The notes beneath the pieces are model-generated. The model saw only the letters and a list, made by a program, of their open reading frames with translations, did no database searches and was not told where the DNA came from. 64,000 bases of DNA from Sulfitobacter mediterraneus (GTDB taxonomy: Bacteria; Pseudomonadota; Alphaproteobacteria; Rhodobacterales; Rhodobacteraceae): NCBI RefSeq assembly GCF_016801775.1, contig NZ_CP069004.1, positions 1,116,001 through 1,180,000 on the forward strand, in the 5' to 3' direction. Made by a program: the position numbers and the translations under genes. Shown in pieces: positions 413 through 28,357 of the stretch (positions are counted from its first letter, which is position 1; the number at the start of each line of letters is the position of its first letter).

Positions 413-772
413 CTTACGTCTTTCCAACGCCTTGAGGCATCGCCCCGGCGCTTCTTCTTATTGCATCACGCCTCTCAAGGCGCAGGCAGGGTCACGCAAA
501 ACAGATCGCACGCGCGGGCCATATGCCACACACCTGTCTGATGCGTTTGGCCCCACGCGTGATTTTGGGAACAAGAGGCGAAGCTTACAAGCCGGACTGT
601 TGGGGCGTATCCCCGGCACCGGAACTGCTCACGCGGCAGAAGCATCACTTGAGCGGTCAAATGGGGGTTCGCGGCGCGAAAGTCAACCTCTGCGGTCAAA
701 AGCCTGTAGAACTGCGGCGCGAACACCGCTAAGACGGGGGCTCTTTGACGATCAGGCGACCGGGGGCGGCCC
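413..772. other. Divergent intergenic region, no gene recognised
   Basis: This 360-bp stretch separates the minus-strand helicase start from the plus-strand Fur-family start, so it should hold promoters for both. Short open frames here have no protein-like composition. GCGGTCAAA occurs twice (around 653 and 692). I see no convincing RNA gene, terminator or Fur/Mur box. Confidence 0.4.
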
Positions 773-1189
773 ATGAGTACATCCATCATCACCCGCTGCG
801 AAAGCATGGGGCTGCGCATGACAGGCCAGCGCCGCATCATCGCCCAGGTCATCGAAGACAGCCGCGACCACCCGGATGTCGAAGAGTTGTTCACGCGTGC
901 CTCCGCGCTGGATGGTGCAATCTCGATTGCCACGGTATATCGCACGGTCAAACTCTTTGAGGAGGCGGGCATCCTCGACAAGCTGGAATTTGGTGACGGG
1001 CGCGCACGCTATGAAGATGCAGAGCGCGATCACCATGACCATCTGATTGATCTCAATTCCGGCAAGGTCATCGAATTTGTAGATGCCGAAATTGAGCAAT
1101 TGCAGGAACGCATCGCCAAGAAGCTGGGATACGAGCTGCGCGGGCACCGGATGGAGCTTTACGGCGTCCCGCTCAAGAAAGGCAGCTAG
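773..1189 (+). CDS. Fur-family metal-responsive transcriptional regulator
   Basis: A 138-residue winged-helix repressor of the Fur family. The N-terminal DNA-binding domain (about 1-80) contains the typical recognition segment ISIATVYRTVKLFEEAG. The regulatory metal site HHDH is at residues 87-90, followed by a dimerisation domain rich in acidic residues and His. There is no C-terminal CxxC pair, so the structural zinc site of classical Fur is absent. That is usual for alphaproteobacterial Fur/Mur and Irr proteins. In this order, Fur orthologues often act as the manganese regulator Mur; whether this one senses Mn or Fe is not visible. It is convergent with the AbrB-like membrane gene, overlapping by 4 bases. 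Confidence 0.92.
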   Translation: MSTSIITRCESMGLRMTGQRRIIAQVIEDSRDHPDVEELFTRASALDGAISIATVYRTVKLFEEAGILDKLEFGDGRARYEDAERDHHDHLIDLNSGKVIEFVDAEIEQLQERIAKKLGYELRGHRMELYGVPLKKGS

Positions 1190-2256
1190 GCGGCGCCCTC
1201 TTTGCGTCGTTGACGGGCCAACATCGCGGGCAAAACAAAGCTGAGCACCACAAGCCGCATGATATGGCAGGCCGCGACGAAGCCGGGGATCACGCCCAGC
1301 ACCGCGCCCATCGCGATCATCGTTTCAAAACCGCCGGGTGCAAAGGCGACCAGCACATGCGCCAAAGGCATGCCCAGTGCCAGGCCAACCGGCACTGCGC
1401 CAAGCGCCGCCAGCCCGACCGCAACGCCGGTGATCGCCAAACCGGCCATGAGCCCACTGGTCAGCCGCGCCAATGTCACCCCTGAAAACCGTGTCCCGAT
1501 CAACCCGCCCAGCACCAGATAGGCCGGCAGGATCAACCATGCGGGCAAGACACCGGGCGTCAATTCCGTCACATGACCAAGTGCACTGACCGCCATGCCG
1601 CCCAACAACAACGGCGCCGGCACGTTCCAACGCATGAACAAATAGCCAACCCCAGAGGCCAGAACCGCAAGAACAGCAATCACCAGCAGGCTCATCTGAT
1701 CGCCTTGCGGGGCAACATTGCCCGACACTTCGATCCCCATGGCAAGGGCGACAAAGGGCACCACAATCGTCAGCGACAACAGCCGCACCGATTGCGTGAT
1801 CGAGATCCGCGCCACGTCAGAACCACCGTCGGTTGCGATGGCCATGACAAAGCTAAGATGCCCCGGCGCAGAGGCAAGGATGGCCGAGCGCGGATCAAAT
1901 CCGAACCCGCGTACCAGCATGAACCGGCACAGGACCAGGATCGCCCAGATGATCAGCGCCATAAAGACAAAGGCCAATGGCCAGCGCAGCATCGCCGCCA
2001 GCGCATCCGCGTCGAACCCCGCCCCGACCGCGATCCCCAGCAGCAGGAAACACAAATCGCGAAGCCGGGGGTCAACACCAGTCGTCAGGCCGCCCAAGCC
2101 CGCCAATGTCACCGCGATTGCCGGGCCAAGCAACATATAGACCGGCGCGTTTATGGCCCATCCCAGGGCAGCACCTGCGATCGCAATGGCAAGAGTGATT
2201 GCGGAGGTGAGCGGGGAAATCCGGGAAACATCGTTTTGCATGCCTCGTGCTATCAT
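1186..2256 (-). CDS. AbrB-family (duplicated membrane domain) integral membrane protein
   Basis: A hydrophobic protein of about 356 residues with ten or so predicted membrane segments arranged as two similar halves, each with a Gly/Pro-rich LGPAIAVTLAG or LLLGGMAVSALG-type block. This matches the 'AbrB duplication' membrane family (TIGR03082), often labelled putative ammonia monooxygenase, a name I would not trust. Function is unknown; transport is likely. The first Met may be followed by a better start at M6 (base 2241). It is convergent with the Fur-family gene and divergent from the EamA transporter. Confidence 0.82.
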   Translation of the reverse strand: MIARGMQNDVSRISPLTSAITLAIAIAGAALGWAINAPVYMLLGPAIAVTLAGLGGLTTGVDPRLRDLCFLLLGIAVGAGFDADALAAMLRWPLAFVFMALIIWAILVLCRFMLVRGFGFDPRSAILASAPGHLSFVMAIATDGGSDVARISITQSVRLLSLTIVVPFVALAMGIEVSGNVAPQGDQMSLLVIAVLAVLASGVGYLFMRWNVPAPLLLGGMAVSALGHVTELTPGVLPAWLILPAYLVLGGLIGTRFSGVTLARLTSGLMAGLAITGVAVGLAALGAVPVGLALGMPLAHVLVAFAPGGFETMIAMGAVLGVIPGFVAACHIMRLVVLSFVLPAMLARQRRKEGAA

Positions 2257-2341
2257 CGGTTGCAGGCAGCTTCCAGCCGCACTTGCCCTTGGCCGCCAAA
2301 ACCGTCATGGCGGGGAAAAGACAATCGGCTGGGATCTGAAC

Positions 2342-3211
2342 ATGGACAACTTTTGCGGCGCCGTCCTAATGGTATTGGCGATGCTGGGCTTTGCGCTTGA
2401 GGATATGTTCATCAAGCTGCTGGCCGACGCGCTGCCCATTGGGCAGATCCTGTTGATGCTGGGCATTGGCGGATCGGCGGTCTTTGGCGCGGTGGTTCTG
2501 GCACAGGGCAAATCCCTGTTCACCCGTGAAATGCTGTCCTGGCCCATCCTGGCCCGCGCGATGGGCGAGTTGATCGGCGCACTGACCTTTGTCTCGGCCA
2601 TCGTGCTGACCCCGATCTCCAGCGCTTCGGCGATTTTGCAGGCCACCCCGCTGGTGGTCACACTGGGCGCGGCACTGTTCCTGGGCGAGCCTGTGGGCTG
2701 GCGCCGGTGGAGCGCGATTTTTGTCGGGCTGTTTGGTGTCTTGCTGATCATCCGGCCTGGCATGGACAGCTTTGAACTATTGTCCATTCTGGCCCTGATC
2801 GCGGTCTTTGCACTGGCGCTGCGGGATCTGTCCACGCGCAAGATCCCGCCAAGCGTGTCGTCGATGCAGCTCAGCTTTGTTGGCTTTGTTTCCGTGCTGC
2901 CTGCGGGGGTGATCTTGTTGTTTTTCACCGGCGAAAGCCTTGTCGCGCCGACCTCTGGCGGTTGGATCAAGGTTATCTCGGCCATCACCATTGGCCTTTT
3001 TGCCTATTACGCCATTGTTGCCGCAACGCGCGTAGGTGACATCGGCTTTGTCACGCCCTTCCGTTATACGCGGCTGATTTTTGCGCTGATTGCAGGTGTC
3101 GTCATCTTTGACGAATCCCCCGATACGCTGACCCTGCTGGGGGCGGCCATCATTGTGGCCTCCGGCATCTATACCGTCTGGCGCGAACGCAAAATCAGGC
3201 CGCTACAGTAA
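2342..3211 (+). CDS. EamA/DMT-family transporter
   Basis: A 289-residue inner-membrane protein with about ten hydrophobic helices and two EamA halves. The first half contains ASAILQATPLVVTLGAALFL and the second ends VIFDESPDTLTLLGAAIIVASG, the usual drug/metabolite transporter pattern. I chose the ATG at 2342 (MDNFCGAVLMVLAMLGFALE) because the upstream in-frame extension is hydrophilic, low-complexity and overlaps the divergent neighbour. Substrate is unknown; relatives export amino acids, nucleosides or other small metabolites. Enolase follows after 66 bases and is probably transcribed separately. Confidence 0.9.
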   Translation: MDNFCGAVLMVLAMLGFALEDMFIKLLADALPIGQILLMLGIGGSAVFGAVVLAQGKSLFTREMLSWPILARAMGELIGALTFVSAIVLTPISSASAILQATPLVVTLGAALFLGEPVGWRRWSAIFVGLFGVLLIIRPGMDSFELLSILALIAVFALALRDLSTRKIPPSVSSMQLSFVGFVSVLPAGVILLFFTGESLVAPTSGGWIKVISAITIGLFAYYAIVAATRVGDIGFVTPFRYTRLIFALIAGVVIFDESPDTLTLLGAAIIVASGIYTVWRERKIRPLQ

Positions 3212-3259
3212 GCCGCCTTTCCAACCCGGCCCTGCCTCGTTAAAACGCACTCGACTTGA

Positions 3260-4552
<1,293 letters not shown>

Positions 4553-4564
4553 ATCAAACGAACG

Positions 4565-4593
4565 GATTGACCGGGTTACACGCCCGGTCAATC
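4565..4593 (+). terminator. Hairpin terminator downstream of eno
   Basis: An 11-bp perfect stem (4565-4575 with 4583-4593, GATTGACCGGG paired to its complement) and a 7-base loop, 12 bases after the enolase stop. The following T content is modest (TTCG), so termination may be weak or partial. Confidence 0.7.
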
Positions 4594-4675
4594 TTCGATC
4601 TGGAATGTCGCTTTTGCCACCTTGCGCAATTGCTGATCGCTGCCACTCTGTGTCTGGATTACACAGGACAAGATC

Positions 4676-5194
4676 ATGGCATTTCTTACCCCTCTCACTT
4701 TAGCAATGGTCAAACAGGCCGAGAAACGTGTCGGCGTGACATTTGATTACGTGCGCAAGATCGCACAGACAGACTTTGGCCTGTTGTTGAGATACAACAA
4801 GGTTTTTGGTTTCCTGGATCCGCGCAAACATCTCCCTGCAAAAGCCTATCACGCCGCCCGCTTGCGCGGCGCCCTGGCCGCCGATTGTGGCACCTGCGTC
4901 GAGGCCGAGATCAATCTGGCGCTGCAAGCCGGGCTCAGCAAAACCTTGGTCAAGGCGATCCTGAACAGCACGGCAGACGGCCCGCTGGGCGCGGTGATCG
5001 CCCTGACAGATGCAGTTGTCGGAGGCAAACAGGACGCGCCCGATGCCCGTGCAGACGTCCTGAAGGCTTACGGCGAAGCGGGGCTGATCGAATTATCCTT
5101 CGCAATGAACGGCGCCGCCCTGCTTCCCGGTGTCAAACGGGCCATGGGCTATGCCACCACCTGCAACCTGTCGATGATGAAGGCACTGTCATGA
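4676..5194 (+). CDS. AhpD-like / carboxymuconolactone decarboxylase-family protein
   Basis: A 172-residue alpha-helical protein of the AhpD-like superfamily. The redox CxxC motif is at residues 71-74 within ADCGTCVEAEINLALQAG, the usual position for peroxidase-like members. A specific substrate cannot be named; a role in thiol-dependent peroxide reduction is inferred from the family. The stop overlaps the start of the next gene (cupin) by four bases, so the two are translationally coupled. Confidence 0.8.
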   Translation: MAFLTPLTLAMVKQAEKRVGVTFDYVRKIAQTDFGLLLRYNKVFGFLDPRKHLPAKAYHAARLRGALAADCGTCVEAEINLALQAGLSKTLVKAILNSTADGPLGAVIALTDAVVGGKQDAPDARADVLKAYGEAGLIELSFAMNGAALLPGVKRAMGYATTCNLSMMKALS

Positions 5195-5607
5195 CCGCCG
5201 AACAGATTATCGCTCACCTTGGTCTTTCCCCGCACCCCGAAGGTGGACATTACCGACAAACATGGACAGCGACAAATGAGGGCCGCGCCACCGGAACCTG
5301 CATCTATTTTCTTTTGAAATCAGGCGAATGCAGCCATTGGCACAGGGTGGATGCAACCGAGATCTGGCTCTATCACGCAGGTGCACCGCTGGTGTTGTCG
5401 ATGGCAGCAACCGACACAGGGCCAGCGCAAGACCATCTGCTGACACCGGACCTGTCCAAAGGTGCGCCACAAATCATCGTGCCGGAGAACCATTGGCAGG
5501 CGGCCCGTTCCACTGGCGATTACACCTTGGTCAGCTGTACCGTTTCGCCGGGGTTCGAGTTTGCGGGCTTCACCCTCGCCGCGCCGGATTTTGATATCCC
5601 GCGGTAA
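5191..5607 (+). CDS. Cupin-fold DUF985-family protein
   Basis: A 138-residue cupin-like protein. N-terminal LSPHPEGGHYRQTW and the central SHWHRVDATEIWLYHAG block are diagnostic of the DUF985 (YML079w-like) family. The His/Glu residues of that block probably form the metal or ligand pocket. Biochemical function is unknown. The ATG at 5191 overlaps the stop of the AhpD-like gene (ATGA), which fixes the start; a longer in-frame extension only covers the other gene. Hairpin-rich repeat DNA follows. Confidence 0.85.
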   Translation: MTAEQIIAHLGLSPHPEGGHYRQTWTATNEGRATGTCIYFLLKSGECSHWHRVDATEIWLYHAGAPLVLSMAATDTGPAQDHLLTPDLSKGAPQIIVPENHWQAARSTGDYTLVSCTVSPGFEFAGFTLAAPDFDIPR

Positions 5608-5740
5608 ATGGGGGGCCAGCCCCCATCGCCGCTGCGCGGCGCTTCCCCCGGAGGTTTTTTGGCCAAATGAAGACCAGAGCGCCTTTTTCTTCATTTGGCC
5701 CTTAAACCTCTGGGGTCCGGGGCAAAGCCCCGGGTATTTG
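5608..5740. repeat. Hairpin-rich intergenic element
   Basis: Four perfect inverted repeats lie in 130 bases between convergent genes: ATGGGGG 5608-5614 with 5620-5626; CGCCGC 5627-5632 with 5636-5641; a 13-bp stem 5661-5673 with 5688-5700 (GGCCAAATGAAGA); and CCGGGGC 5717-5723 with 5727-5733. The G/C blocks and the TTTTGGCCAAA core resemble 28381-28436 and 56938-56960. It probably terminates transcription from both sides. Confidence 0.7.
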
Positions 5741-25489: not shown

Positions 25490-25813
25490 ATGAACCTGCC
25501 GCCCAAAGTTACCCCCCGCGCCTTTGAACGCCTTGCCGAAATTGGGGCCGCGGGTGAAGGCAAAGCCCTGCGTGTGGCCGTTGAAGGCGGCGGATGTTCA
25601 GGATTTCAGTATGAAATCGCACTCGATGAACCAAAAGAGGACGATCTGATCCTCGAAGGCGGCGGGCAAAAGGTGGTTGTGGACAGCATCTCCCTGCCCT
25701 TCCTGACCGATGCCGTGATTGATTTCAGCGAAGAATTGATCGGCGCGCGCTTCACCATCGAAAATCCCAATGCCACCTCGGCCTGCGGCTGCGGCACGTC
25801 GTTCTCGATGTAA
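25490..25813 (+). CDS. erpA: HesB/IscA-family iron-sulfur cluster insertion protein
   Basis: A 107-residue A-type Fe-S carrier that delivers clusters to apoproteins. The three conserved Cys are in GGGCSGFQYEIALD (residue about 36) and the C-terminal SACGCGTSFSM pair. The rest follows the HesB fold (VTPRAFERLAEI ... DFSEELIGARFTIENPNAT). ErpA is the likely type, but A-type carriers are hard to tell apart. Its stop is 12 bases from the convergent unknown gene. Confidence 0.92.
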   Translation: MNLPPKVTPRAFERLAEIGAAGEGKALRVAVEGGGCSGFQYEIALDEPKEDDLILEGGGQKVVVDSISLPFLTDAVIDFSEELIGARFTIENPNATSACGCGTSFSM

Positions 25814-25827
25814 CGGCAGCCCTGGGA

Positions 25828-26925
25828 TCAGCGCGCCGAACGCGCGAGCTTGGAAATTTGTCCTTCGGCAAAAGCCGCACGGGAAAAACACTCAAAGAAT
25901 GTTTCAAAATAAGGTGTTGCGCCTTCTGCCTCTGCCAGAACCGCCTGGCACTCAGGGGACAGATAGGTCAATATATGTCCGCGCATACGCGGCCAGTCCG
26001 CCTGCCGCGCCGGGCCCATATCATGCAGGCTTTCAGACATGCCATGCAGCGGGCCAATTGAACGATCGGGCAGCGAAAACCGCAGCGGGCCCGCCGGGAT
26101 CTGCGGCACATCCGGCCTTGCCCCCATCAGGCCGAGCGCCCAACGGCTGACCAGAAATTGATGATATCCATCGCCGAGCGGGGCCGCGCGATCAGCAAAA
26201 AGCGTGATGCTGTGATAGCTATCAGCAACGGCCCGCTGCCAAACCGGCGGCACATGGGCCTTGGCCAGAACCAGCGCGGCGCAAACCTCGGCGAGAAGGT
26301 CAAAATCCAGATCAAGATGCGCCAGAATGCCCGCGTAATGCAGCCCCAGAAGGGCATTATGCGACATGACAGGCACGCGGCGGCCATAATCGGAAAGATA
26401 AAACACAACATGGGTCAGCTCATACGCTGCCTTCTTGTTGGGCAATGCAAAGGTCGCCGGACGCGACATGAAGCGGTGCAACCGACGGGCCAACGGGCCG
26501 TCTTCTACCGGCGCACCAACGCCGCGCCTGCGCAGCAAGCGCCGGGCCTCGGCGCGTTGCAGATCCGACATCTCGGCCTCTGCGAATTTGTGGGTCGCAA
26601 CCCAGTTGCACAATTCCTGCCCGCGTTGGCCGGCCATCCCCAAGTCTTCCAAATCCAGACAGATCGACAGCAAAAACCGATAATACTGCGGGAAGAAATG
26701 CAACTGGTCTTCGATGCGGTCATAAAAATCATGCAAGGGATCAAGCGCGCCCGGAGGCAGCTCCTCCCCTTCGGAGGCCAAAACACCAAGCAATTCAGCA
26801 ACTTCCTTGAGCCAATAGATGTCACTCGAGCCATGCCGTCCTTCGACAACCGCGGTGATCAGCGCACGAAGGCGTGCATCCTGATTGAGCTGCATGGCAG
26901 ATTGAAAGCTGAGGATATTTGACAT
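25828..26925 (-). CDS. Uncharacterised helical protein, partner of the repeat peptide
   Basis: A 365-residue protein I cannot assign. It has no signal peptide and no clear membrane segment. It is mostly alpha-helical by composition, with a conspicuous block at residues 169-215: ELTHVVFYLSDYGRR, then MSHNALLGLHYAGILAHLDL and DLLAEVCAALVLAKAH. His and Asp residues at helix-like spacing suggest a helical barrel or metal site, but this is only impression. Other regions: an acidic IEDQLHFFPQYYRFLLSICLDLEDLG (70-95 area) and an RRLLRRRG hinge (129-136). It lies 67 bases downstream of a peptide gene with three internal repeats, same strand, with a hairpin between. Confidence 0.8.
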   Translation of the reverse strand: MSNILSFQSAMQLNQDARLRALITAVVEGRHGSSDIYWLKEVAELLGVLASEGEELPPGALDPLHDFYDRIEDQLHFFPQYYRFLLSICLDLEDLGMAGQRGQELCNWVATHKFAEAEMSDLQRAEARRLLRRRGVGAPVEDGPLARRLHRFMSRPATFALPNKKAAYELTHVVFYLSDYGRRVPVMSHNALLGLHYAGILAHLDLDFDLLAEVCAALVLAKAHVPPVWQRAVADSYHSITLFADRAAPLGDGYHQFLVSRWALGLMGARPDVPQIPAGPLRFSLPDRSIGPLHGMSESLHDMGPARQADWPRMRGHILTYLSPECQAVLAEAEGATPYFETFFECFSRAAFAEGQISKLARSAR

Positions 26926-26958
26926 GGGATCGCTCCGGCTGGTGGATCAGGTGCCAAA

Positions 26959-26979
26959 GGCCCGCACTCAATGCGGGCC
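26959..26979 (-). terminator. Hairpin between the repeat peptide and its downstream gene
   Basis: GGCCCGCA (26959-26966) pairs with TGCGGGCC (26972-26979) around a 5-base loop. In the direction of transcription it follows the peptide stop by about 14 bases and precedes the next start by about 34. There is no T tract, so it may be a partial terminator or RNA-processing site rather than a full stop. Confidence 0.6.
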
Positions 26980-26992
26980 CTGACAGAAAGGT

Positions 26993-27211
26993 TCAGCAGC
27001 TGGTGGTGTAAAGGTCCAAACCATGACCAGTGGCCGCCAGACGCCCCGATGGCGCAGACCCGGTGGTGAACAGATCAAGCCCGCCACCTGTCATCATATC
27101 CGCCGCAGCGGGCGCAGAGCCGGTGGTAAAGAGGTCAAGCCCCTGGCCACTGTTTATTTGGGTGTGAGTAGAACGGGCGGGGGTTGGGATCGCAAGTGCA
27201 AGTGATGTCAT
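26993..27211 (-). CDS. 72-residue peptide with three GLDL(F/Y)TT repeats
   Basis: A short protein with an AAGGAGA ribosome site 8 bases before its ATG (27209-27211). Residues 1-20 form a Thr/Ala/Pro-rich leader-like part (MTSLALAIPTPARSTHTQIN). Residues 21-40, 41-60 and 61-72 are three units of exactly 20, 20 and 12 residues: SGQGLDLFTTGSAPAAADMM, TGGGLDLFTTGSAPSGRLAA and TGHGLDLYTTSC. The chain ends in Cys. The units are also repeats at DNA level with a 60-base period. It has no recognisable domain. Leader plus iterated core next to an unknown protein recalls a ribosomally made precursor peptide, but modification is not shown. Alternatives: a small adhesin-like or regulatory protein. Confidence 0.82.
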   Translation of the reverse strand: MTSLALAIPTPARSTHTQINSGQGLDLFTTGSAPAAADMMTGGGLDLFTTGSAPSGRLAATGHGLDLYTTSC

Positions 27212-27241
27212 GGGACAATCTCCTTTTGGGATGGGTGAAGG

Positions 27242-27574: not shown

Positions 27575-28357
27575 ATGAAAATCGCCACATTCAACATCAA
27601 CGGGATCAAAGCGCGGGCCGAGGCGCTGCCGGCATGGCTCGATGAAGCGCAGCCGGATGTGGTTTTGTTGCAGGAAATCAAATCGGTAGATGAAAACTTC
27701 CCCCGCGAGCTGTTCGAAGACCGCGGGTACAATGTGGAAACCCATGGGCAAAAATCCTTTAACGGTGTCGCGATCCTGTCCAAACATCCTTTGGAAGATG
27801 TGTCACGCGGCCTGCCGGGCGATGAGAGCGACGAACAGGCCCGCTGGATCGAAGCCACGGTGATGGGCGAGCGCGAGGCGCTGCGTGTCTGCGGGCTTTA
27901 CCTGCCCAATGGCAACCCTGCGCCAGGGCCAAAGTTTGATTACAAGCTGGCGTGGATGCAGCGCCTTAAGGCGCGGGCGCAGGCCTTACTGGCAGAAGAG
28001 ACCCCGTTTTTGATGGCCGGGGATTACAATATTATTCCGCAGGCCGAAGATGCTGCCAAACCCGATGCCTGGCGTGATGACGCACTTTTCCGCCCTGAAT
28101 CCCGCGCAGCCTGGCGGCGCTTGTTGAATCTTGGACTGACCGAAGCCTTCCGCGCCCGCACACAGGGGCCGGGGCATTACAGTTTTTGGGACTATCAAGC
28201 CGGCGCATGGAACCGCAACAATGGCATCAGGATTGATCATTTCCTGCTGAGCCCGGCCTGTGCGGACATGCTGCGCGACTGCCAGATTGACCGCGATGTG
28301 CGCGGGCGGGACAAACCGTCTGATCACGTGCCGGTCTGGGTTGATCTGGATTTTTGA
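27575..28357 (+). CDS. xth: Exodeoxyribonuclease III (AP endonuclease)
   Basis: A 260-residue Mg-dependent repair enzyme cutting DNA at abasic sites. It begins MKIATFNINGIKARAEALP and has the metal-binding LLQEIKS, the AGDYNIIP segment, NNGIRIDHFLLSP and the C-terminal KPSDHVPVWVDL with the catalytic Asp-His pair. The start at 27575 gives the invariant MKIATFNINGIKAR; the upstream frame is not protein-like. It is convergent with the HNH nuclease gene over a hairpin at 28381. Confidence 0.97.
   Translation: MKIATFNINGIKARAEALPAWLDEAQPDVVLLQEIKSVDENFPRELFEDRGYNVETHGQKSFNGVAILSKHPLEDVSRGLPGDESDEQARWIEATVMGEREALRVCGLYLPNGNPAPGPKFDYKLAWMQRLKARAQALLAEETPFLMAGDYNIIPQAEDAAKPDAWRDDALFRPESRAAWRRLLNLGLTEAFRARTQGPGHYSFWDYQAGAWNRNNGIRIDHFLLSPACADMLRDCQIDRDVRGRDKPSDHVPVWVDLDF

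Follow-up and report, generated by a model that had tools for sequence, protein, structure and literature searches.

Multi-core precursors, in which a leader is followed by iterated cores with flanking recognition sequence, are known from cyanobactins, fungal dikaritins and yeast alpha-factor. The peptide described here shares this layout and, among the precursors of its kind as in alpha-factor, the copies resemble one another inside a precursor but differ between species. It differs from these systems in that no linked protease, exporter, transporter, protease/cyclase pair or secretion signal is seen in the gene pair and its ten neighbours, and in that the locus is syntenic and forms no mobile cluster.

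The partner gene encodes a DUF6902 protein, which invites comparison with the DUF6895 epimerase of a lasso-peptide pathway, named in the title of a paper by Shi et al. (ACS Catal. 2026, doi 10.1021/acscatal.5c08590) in the reference list of PMC13352647. DUF6902 is homologous to DUF6895 at the level of sequence, and it shares with 13 DUF6895 proteins the columns that do not vary among them. Contrary to the lasso system of that title, however, DUF6902 constitutes a separate Pfam family with a multi-core precursor and no lasso genes nearby, occupies one fixed chromosomal site, and was found here in one bacterial family only. MslH, a lasso-peptide epimerase, is described as metal-dependent and as acting on one C-terminal Trp (PMC10406935). 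It is a single enzyme that alters the stereochemistry of a ribosomal precursor, as DUF6902 putatively does, and many DUF6902 precursors end at a core residue (118 of 161 exactly at core position +4). The internal cores of the DUF6902 system have no free C-terminus, however, and MslH is likened to it by description rather than by sequence.

In open-licence papers (subscription papers lay outside the search) we found no mention of DUF6902, only a reference-list entry for DUF6895 and, going by titles, nothing on the precursor/DUF6902 system. The pair probably makes an undescribed kind of modified peptide.

The repeat peptide and its DUF6902 partner

The window is a 64,000-nucleotide stretch of Sulfitobacter mediterraneus DNA, and its relevant features are collected in Table 1. 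The original prediction had described, at 26993-27211, a ribosome site AAGGAGA, 20 leader residues, three units (20, 20 and 12 residues long) that carry GLDL(F/Y)TT at an equal position, and a terminal Cys; all of these were read again, and the minus strand was added. A seven-base gap separates the ribosome site (27225-27219) from the ATG at 27211. The leader MTSLALAIPTPARSTHTQIN is followed by the units SGQGLDLFTTGSAPAAADMM, TGGGLDLFTTGSAPSGRLAA and TGHGLDLYTTSC, the last ending in Cys-stop, and the three cores are mixed. The predicted exact 20-residue periodicity was likewise borne out, with a period-20 self-match score of 31 compared with a maximum of 16 over 20,000 shuffles of the same residues. 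Comparison with the orthologue in L136, also from S. mediterraneus, gave a dN of 0.10 and a dS of 0.70, an excess of dS over dN that supports reading the ORF as coding. The precursor matched no Pfam or NCBIfam family, and no second copy was found in the window's own genome at E < 0.06.

The adjacent gene starts 67 nt past the precursor stop. The earlier description of a large unknown protein was correct as to the shared strand, and the protein can now be identified as DUF6902 (PF21843, 420.3 bits against a curated cut-off of 27). It also matches the DUF6895 Pfam profile (75.4 bits, cut-off 23.8); the partner turns out to be related to a family named, in a title, as an epimerase. A profile comparison of the two families gave 97.1%, with Y-H, D-E and Y-H residues aligned, and Y168, H172, G181, D209, E213, Y254 and H255 of DUF6902 align with the invariant DUF6895 columns; in the numbering of the DUF6895 protein L265, the His, Asp, Glu and His of this set are H173, D214, E218 and H276. 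Conserved residues of DUF6902 are H172, D209, E213, H255 and E44, and the predicted model is a helical toroid (pLDDT 94.7).

Between the two genes lies a stem-loop, which could keep the precursor level above that of the enzyme. It is not universal: of 163 loci, 47 gave a z below -2 for the fold of the equivalent intergenic stretch and 56 a z above 0.

Table 1. Features of the window, and short ORFs upstream of DUF6895 genes (numbered within their own loci)
Feature	Position	Strand	Basis
Precursor gene, 72 aa + stop	26993..27211	-	ORF reading; dN/dS vs L136
Ribosome site AAGGAGA of precursor	27219..27225	-	Direct reading
Precursor leader, residues 1-20	27152..27211	-	Direct reading; start resembles other leaders
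Core 1, FTTGS	27116..27130	-	Core positions 0 to +4
Core 2, FTTGS	27056..27070	-	Core positions 0 to +4
Core 3, YTTSC, final residues ahead of stop	26996..27010	-	Core positions 0 to +4
Stem-loop, precursor/DUF6902 intergenic	26952..26985	-	67-nt fold -28.5 kcal/mol, z -2.4
DUF6902 protein, 365 aa, putative core-modifying enzyme	25828..26925	-	PF21843 E 7e-126, PF21836 E 6.7e-21
xthA-like exonuclease, conserved neighbour, outside the system	27575..28357	+	PF03372; synteny
erpA-like Fe-S protein, conserved neighbour, outside the system	25490..25813	+	PF01521; synteny
Short ORFs before DUF6895, L264	9254-9451 and 9653-9850
Short ORF before DUF6895, L265	10907-11338
Short ORF before DUF6895, L266	9425-9910
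Short ORF before DUF6895, L268	9840-10076
Short ORF before DUF6895, L269	3602-3862
Short ORF before DUF6895, L270	3747-3953
Short ORF before DUF6895, L271	3329-3685
Short ORF before DUF6895, L272	3708-3905

Linkage, synteny and distribution

Precursors were sought beside DUF6902, in the window's own genome and in 30 erpA loci. The DUF6902 set comprised loci L001-L215 without L029 (a weak, DUF6895-like match) and L135 (a start-less fragment), that is 213 loci from two overlapping collections, encoding 181 unique proteins. For each, the best ORF ending between 400 nt upstream of the DUF6902 start and 140 nt inside it was taken, so that adjacency is given by construction. A repeat peptide lies directly upstream in 174 of the 181, or 174 of the 177 that could be judged, and three have none. 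The four outside the judgeable set (L065, L076, L077 and L110) are affected by N runs or contig ends, L076 having a repeat in another frame. By score alone 170 precursors passed and 11 were weak, four of which (L139, L021, L107 and L182) were accepted by eye. At DUF6902, 163 of 176 loci had an upstream repeat score of at least 16, compared with 1/166 control regions upstream of dgt, 2/148 for erpA, 0/36 for an HNH gene and 0/111 for argS. The xthA control is high (65/172) because xthA faces the precursor.

Repeat-less homologues had been named beforehand as a finding that would speak against the proposal. Such proteins do exist, in L115, L133 and L134, which represent two lineages rather than three and sit beside the usual neighbours; among the 181 unique proteins, these are also the only ones that have lost E44, Y81, H172 and D209, and their DUF6902 copies are perhaps repurposed or decaying. 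Separately, an internal stop in L113 (G164) and the fragments in L135 (G426) suggest decay of DUF6902 in some lineages.

In 181 of the 199 loci whose flanks were long enough (not deduplicated; 14 further loci were too short), the pair has xthA on its upstream side and erpA on its downstream side; the other 18 have xthA only (16), erpA only (1) or neither (1). From lists of genomes without DUF6902 we chose 33, all of which carry erpA, and fetched 30 of the loci. None of these 30 contained a DUF6902 match or a motif-bearing repeat peptide, so both genes are absent together. Within their flanks xthA was present in 22, at about 130 nt or less from erpA in eight and at 245-1347 nt in 14. A lasso cluster was considered for the window and rejected: the ten neighbours carry other domains, no Asn-synthetase-like cyclase stands beside the precursor, and the only Asn_synthase hits in the genome are partial and lie some 300 kb off.

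Among genomes of the same genus, 28 of 36 contain PF21843, counting that of the window. Across the family, 111 of 395 genomes, and 99 of 351 genera, carry DUF6902. Six of 299 genomes drawn from the phylum have PF21843, all six from the same family. Of 423 stretches in a scan of a species collection, 377 were confirmed as relatives; the best 80 of these 377 bear names such as Sulfitobacter, Roseobacter, Ruegeria, Roseovarius and Salipiger, which we take to be members of the Rhodobacterales, except for L169, an Alphaproteobacteria bin.

Short leader-plus-core ORFs were also recognised by eye directly upstream of DUF6895 in 8 of 13 loci (L264-L266 and L268-L272 of L264-L276; Table 1), with leaders like L-x-x-S-G-I-I-D and cores such as GPWYVY and WDKYVLV. 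Together they make up a precursor family, as yet without a name, that spans Pseudomonadota, Bacillota and Actinomycetota. L265 and L266 contain two modules each and L264 two paralogous genes; L273 and L276 have an upstream short ORF of a different kind, and L267, L274 and L275 have none that is clear. These precursors align poorly, with 16-29% identity to the first row and a single invariant column, and none of the ten peptides scanned (L276 left out) exceeded a Pfam or NCBIfam cut-off. In L273, from a Streptomyces fungicidicus plasmid, a tandem DUF6895 pair accompanies a short ORF and P450 and serine hydrolase genes (451-5688); L275 holds a similar tandem pair, and both are possibly another peptide pathway.

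Repeat architecture and selection on the cores

A position matrix scan found 1009 units in 171 of the 174 precursors, with 57 majority pentamers, a median of 5 and a maximum of 20 units per precursor, and a spacing of 20 (451 cases) or 21 (319). It had been proposed that the repeat number would vary while leader and partner stayed conserved, and this is what we see, with 2 to 20 units in 169 of 174 precursors. The remaining five score zero (L126, L127, L132) or one (L116, L130) because the motif has diverged, and other motifs are seen there as repeats. The majority pattern at the start of the leader, over 168 precursors, is M-[TS]-A-[LQ]-x-K: the third residue is A in 131 of them and the sixth is K in 102. 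Start calling was biased towards certain second residues but had no preference for A3 or K6. The L044, L050 and L119 precursors contain compound units in which the core is doubled, for example MFTSGLVQMFTSGL.

Among the 161 precursors with at least three units, G stands at -6 in 161 and F at 0 in 159, which is partly a product of how the matrix was built, and position +2 is Ser, Thr or Cys by majority in 160. The linkage, the conserved leader and the repeats together support the original idea of a multi-core precursor with a partner, with two corrections. The terminal Cys, present in the window precursor, is not general (Cys occurs in the majority core of 31 of 161), and the suggestion of Asp as a modification site is unsupported, the shared core residues being Phe and, two places later, Ser/Thr/Cys.

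Within a precursor, identity at positions +1, +2, +3 and +4 is 97, 95, 91 and 91%, compared with 39, 56, 38 and 35% between precursors. A single pentamer is used throughout in 105 of 161, where dealing the units at random gave a mean of 0.9 and a maximum of 5; the other 56, the window's own included, are non-uniform. Unit pairs within a precursor differ in 3-9% of amino acids at +1 to +4 and in 48-61% of the fourfold sites of the same codons, a divergence that resembles that in the spacers. Core identity within a precursor is therefore shown to be under selection. When mapped on a DUF6902 tree with 160 tips, the 49 types of pentamer require 68 changes, against an average of 117 and a minimum of 113 for shuffled labels, so that cores track descent yet switch often. 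One such switch separates L174 from L171, whose DUF6902 proteins are 95.5% identical: Thr in one stands against Ser in the other at +1 in every unit (7/7 and 6/6), with several unit-specific flanks kept. In L174, three units in the middle are copies of recent origin. The DUF6902 columns show no visible tracking of core type, and a later partner may therefore dictate the core.

The proposed pathway and its alternatives

The precursors combine a conserved leader with iterated cores under selection, as is characteristic of multi-core RiPP precursors, and the adjacent gene encodes a homologue of the family named by title as an epimerase, its own activity being a prediction. We consider it very probable that the pair is a dedicated peptide-modification pathway, a two-gene RiPP. 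With moderate confidence, we further favour a minimal multi-core system with DUF6902 as the enzyme that alters each core, epimerisation being the most likely change. The precursor would consist of a leader and repeated units, each combining the putative recognition stretch G-x-x-[VTL]-x-x with a five-residue core, F-x-[STC]-x-x, and with a spacer in which +6 is often Pro. We infer that the DUF6902 protein would bind each unit and modify the core inside the central cavity of the toroid, through putative acid/base chemistry with H172, H255, D209, E213 and E44. The most likely reaction would be an epimerisation that converts one residue of the core, perhaps Ser/Thr/Cys at +2, from L to D, after which peptidases encoded elsewhere would free the short peptide in several copies. 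Processing and export would have to depend on genes elsewhere.

This reading is favoured by the 174/177 repeat linkage compared with near-empty control regions, the match to DUF6895, for which a title names a lasso-peptide epimerase, the confinement of the E44, Y81, H172 and D209 losses to three repeat-less loci, the identity of cores despite diverged fourfold sites, and the leader-plus-core ORFs at DUF6895 loci. Against it stand the nature of the epimerase link, a homology across families to an activity given in a title, the unlike core residues of DUF6902 and DUF6895 precursors, the lack of a linked protease or exporter and of a C39 peptidase in the window's own genome, enzyme columns that do not visibly track the core, the non-uniform precursors, and repeat-less exceptions in two lineages.

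The near-constant Ser/Thr/Cys at +2 would also suit side-chain chemistry, and one RiPP enzyme family may contain several activities. That DUF6902 performs dehydration, cyclisation or another linkage at these residues within the same multi-core RiPP is possible, if unlikely, given that epimerisation is the only activity named by title in the related DUF6895 family, that the same His/Asp/Glu/His set is kept, and that DUF6902 showed no cofactor or metal motif of a known type. Short-motif repeats facing a predicted helical toroid, with no processing genes linked, could alternatively point to binding, the peptide being an unmodified multivalent ligand or scaffold whose F-x-S-x-x repeats DUF6902 holds in a complex. 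We think this quite improbable, as the DUF6895 relative is named as an epimerase, the conserved polar His/Asp/Glu residues are lost together with the peptide, and cores switch between species with no visible change in the protein, which would be unusual in a binding pair. Slippage can generate repeats in GC-rich DNA, and the repeats might in principle be a functionless ORF; the probability of this is negligible, since the linkage, a dN lower than dS, cores that stay identical while their fourfold sites diverge, and almost empty control regions all contradict a functionless origin by chance or slippage.

Returning to the favoured epimerase pathway, the fixed position of the pair, with cores uniform within and different between precursors, suggests a physiological or signalling role over that of an acquired antibiotic. 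A broader proposal, which we regard as speculative and rather doubtful, is that DUF6895 and DUF6902 are widespread stand-alone peptide epimerases with their own precursors. The Rhodobacterales branch would then be a vertically inherited core-genome module making many copies of a D-residue pentapeptide, uniform within a strain and switching between species, as expected for a pheromone or kin-recognition signal.

The DUF6895 loci hint at further precursors in four phyla, and there is an evolutionary question in what keeps the copies of one precursor alike while their sequence switches between species. If the favoured reading is right, the enzyme would read many cores in one chain and be useful for D-residue peptides, and since only two genes are needed the system would be directly testable in E. 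coli. A modified-peptide pathway would, on that reading, have gone unnoticed in a common and mostly marine group of bacteria, the family in which 111/395 genomes and 99/351 genera carry DUF6902.
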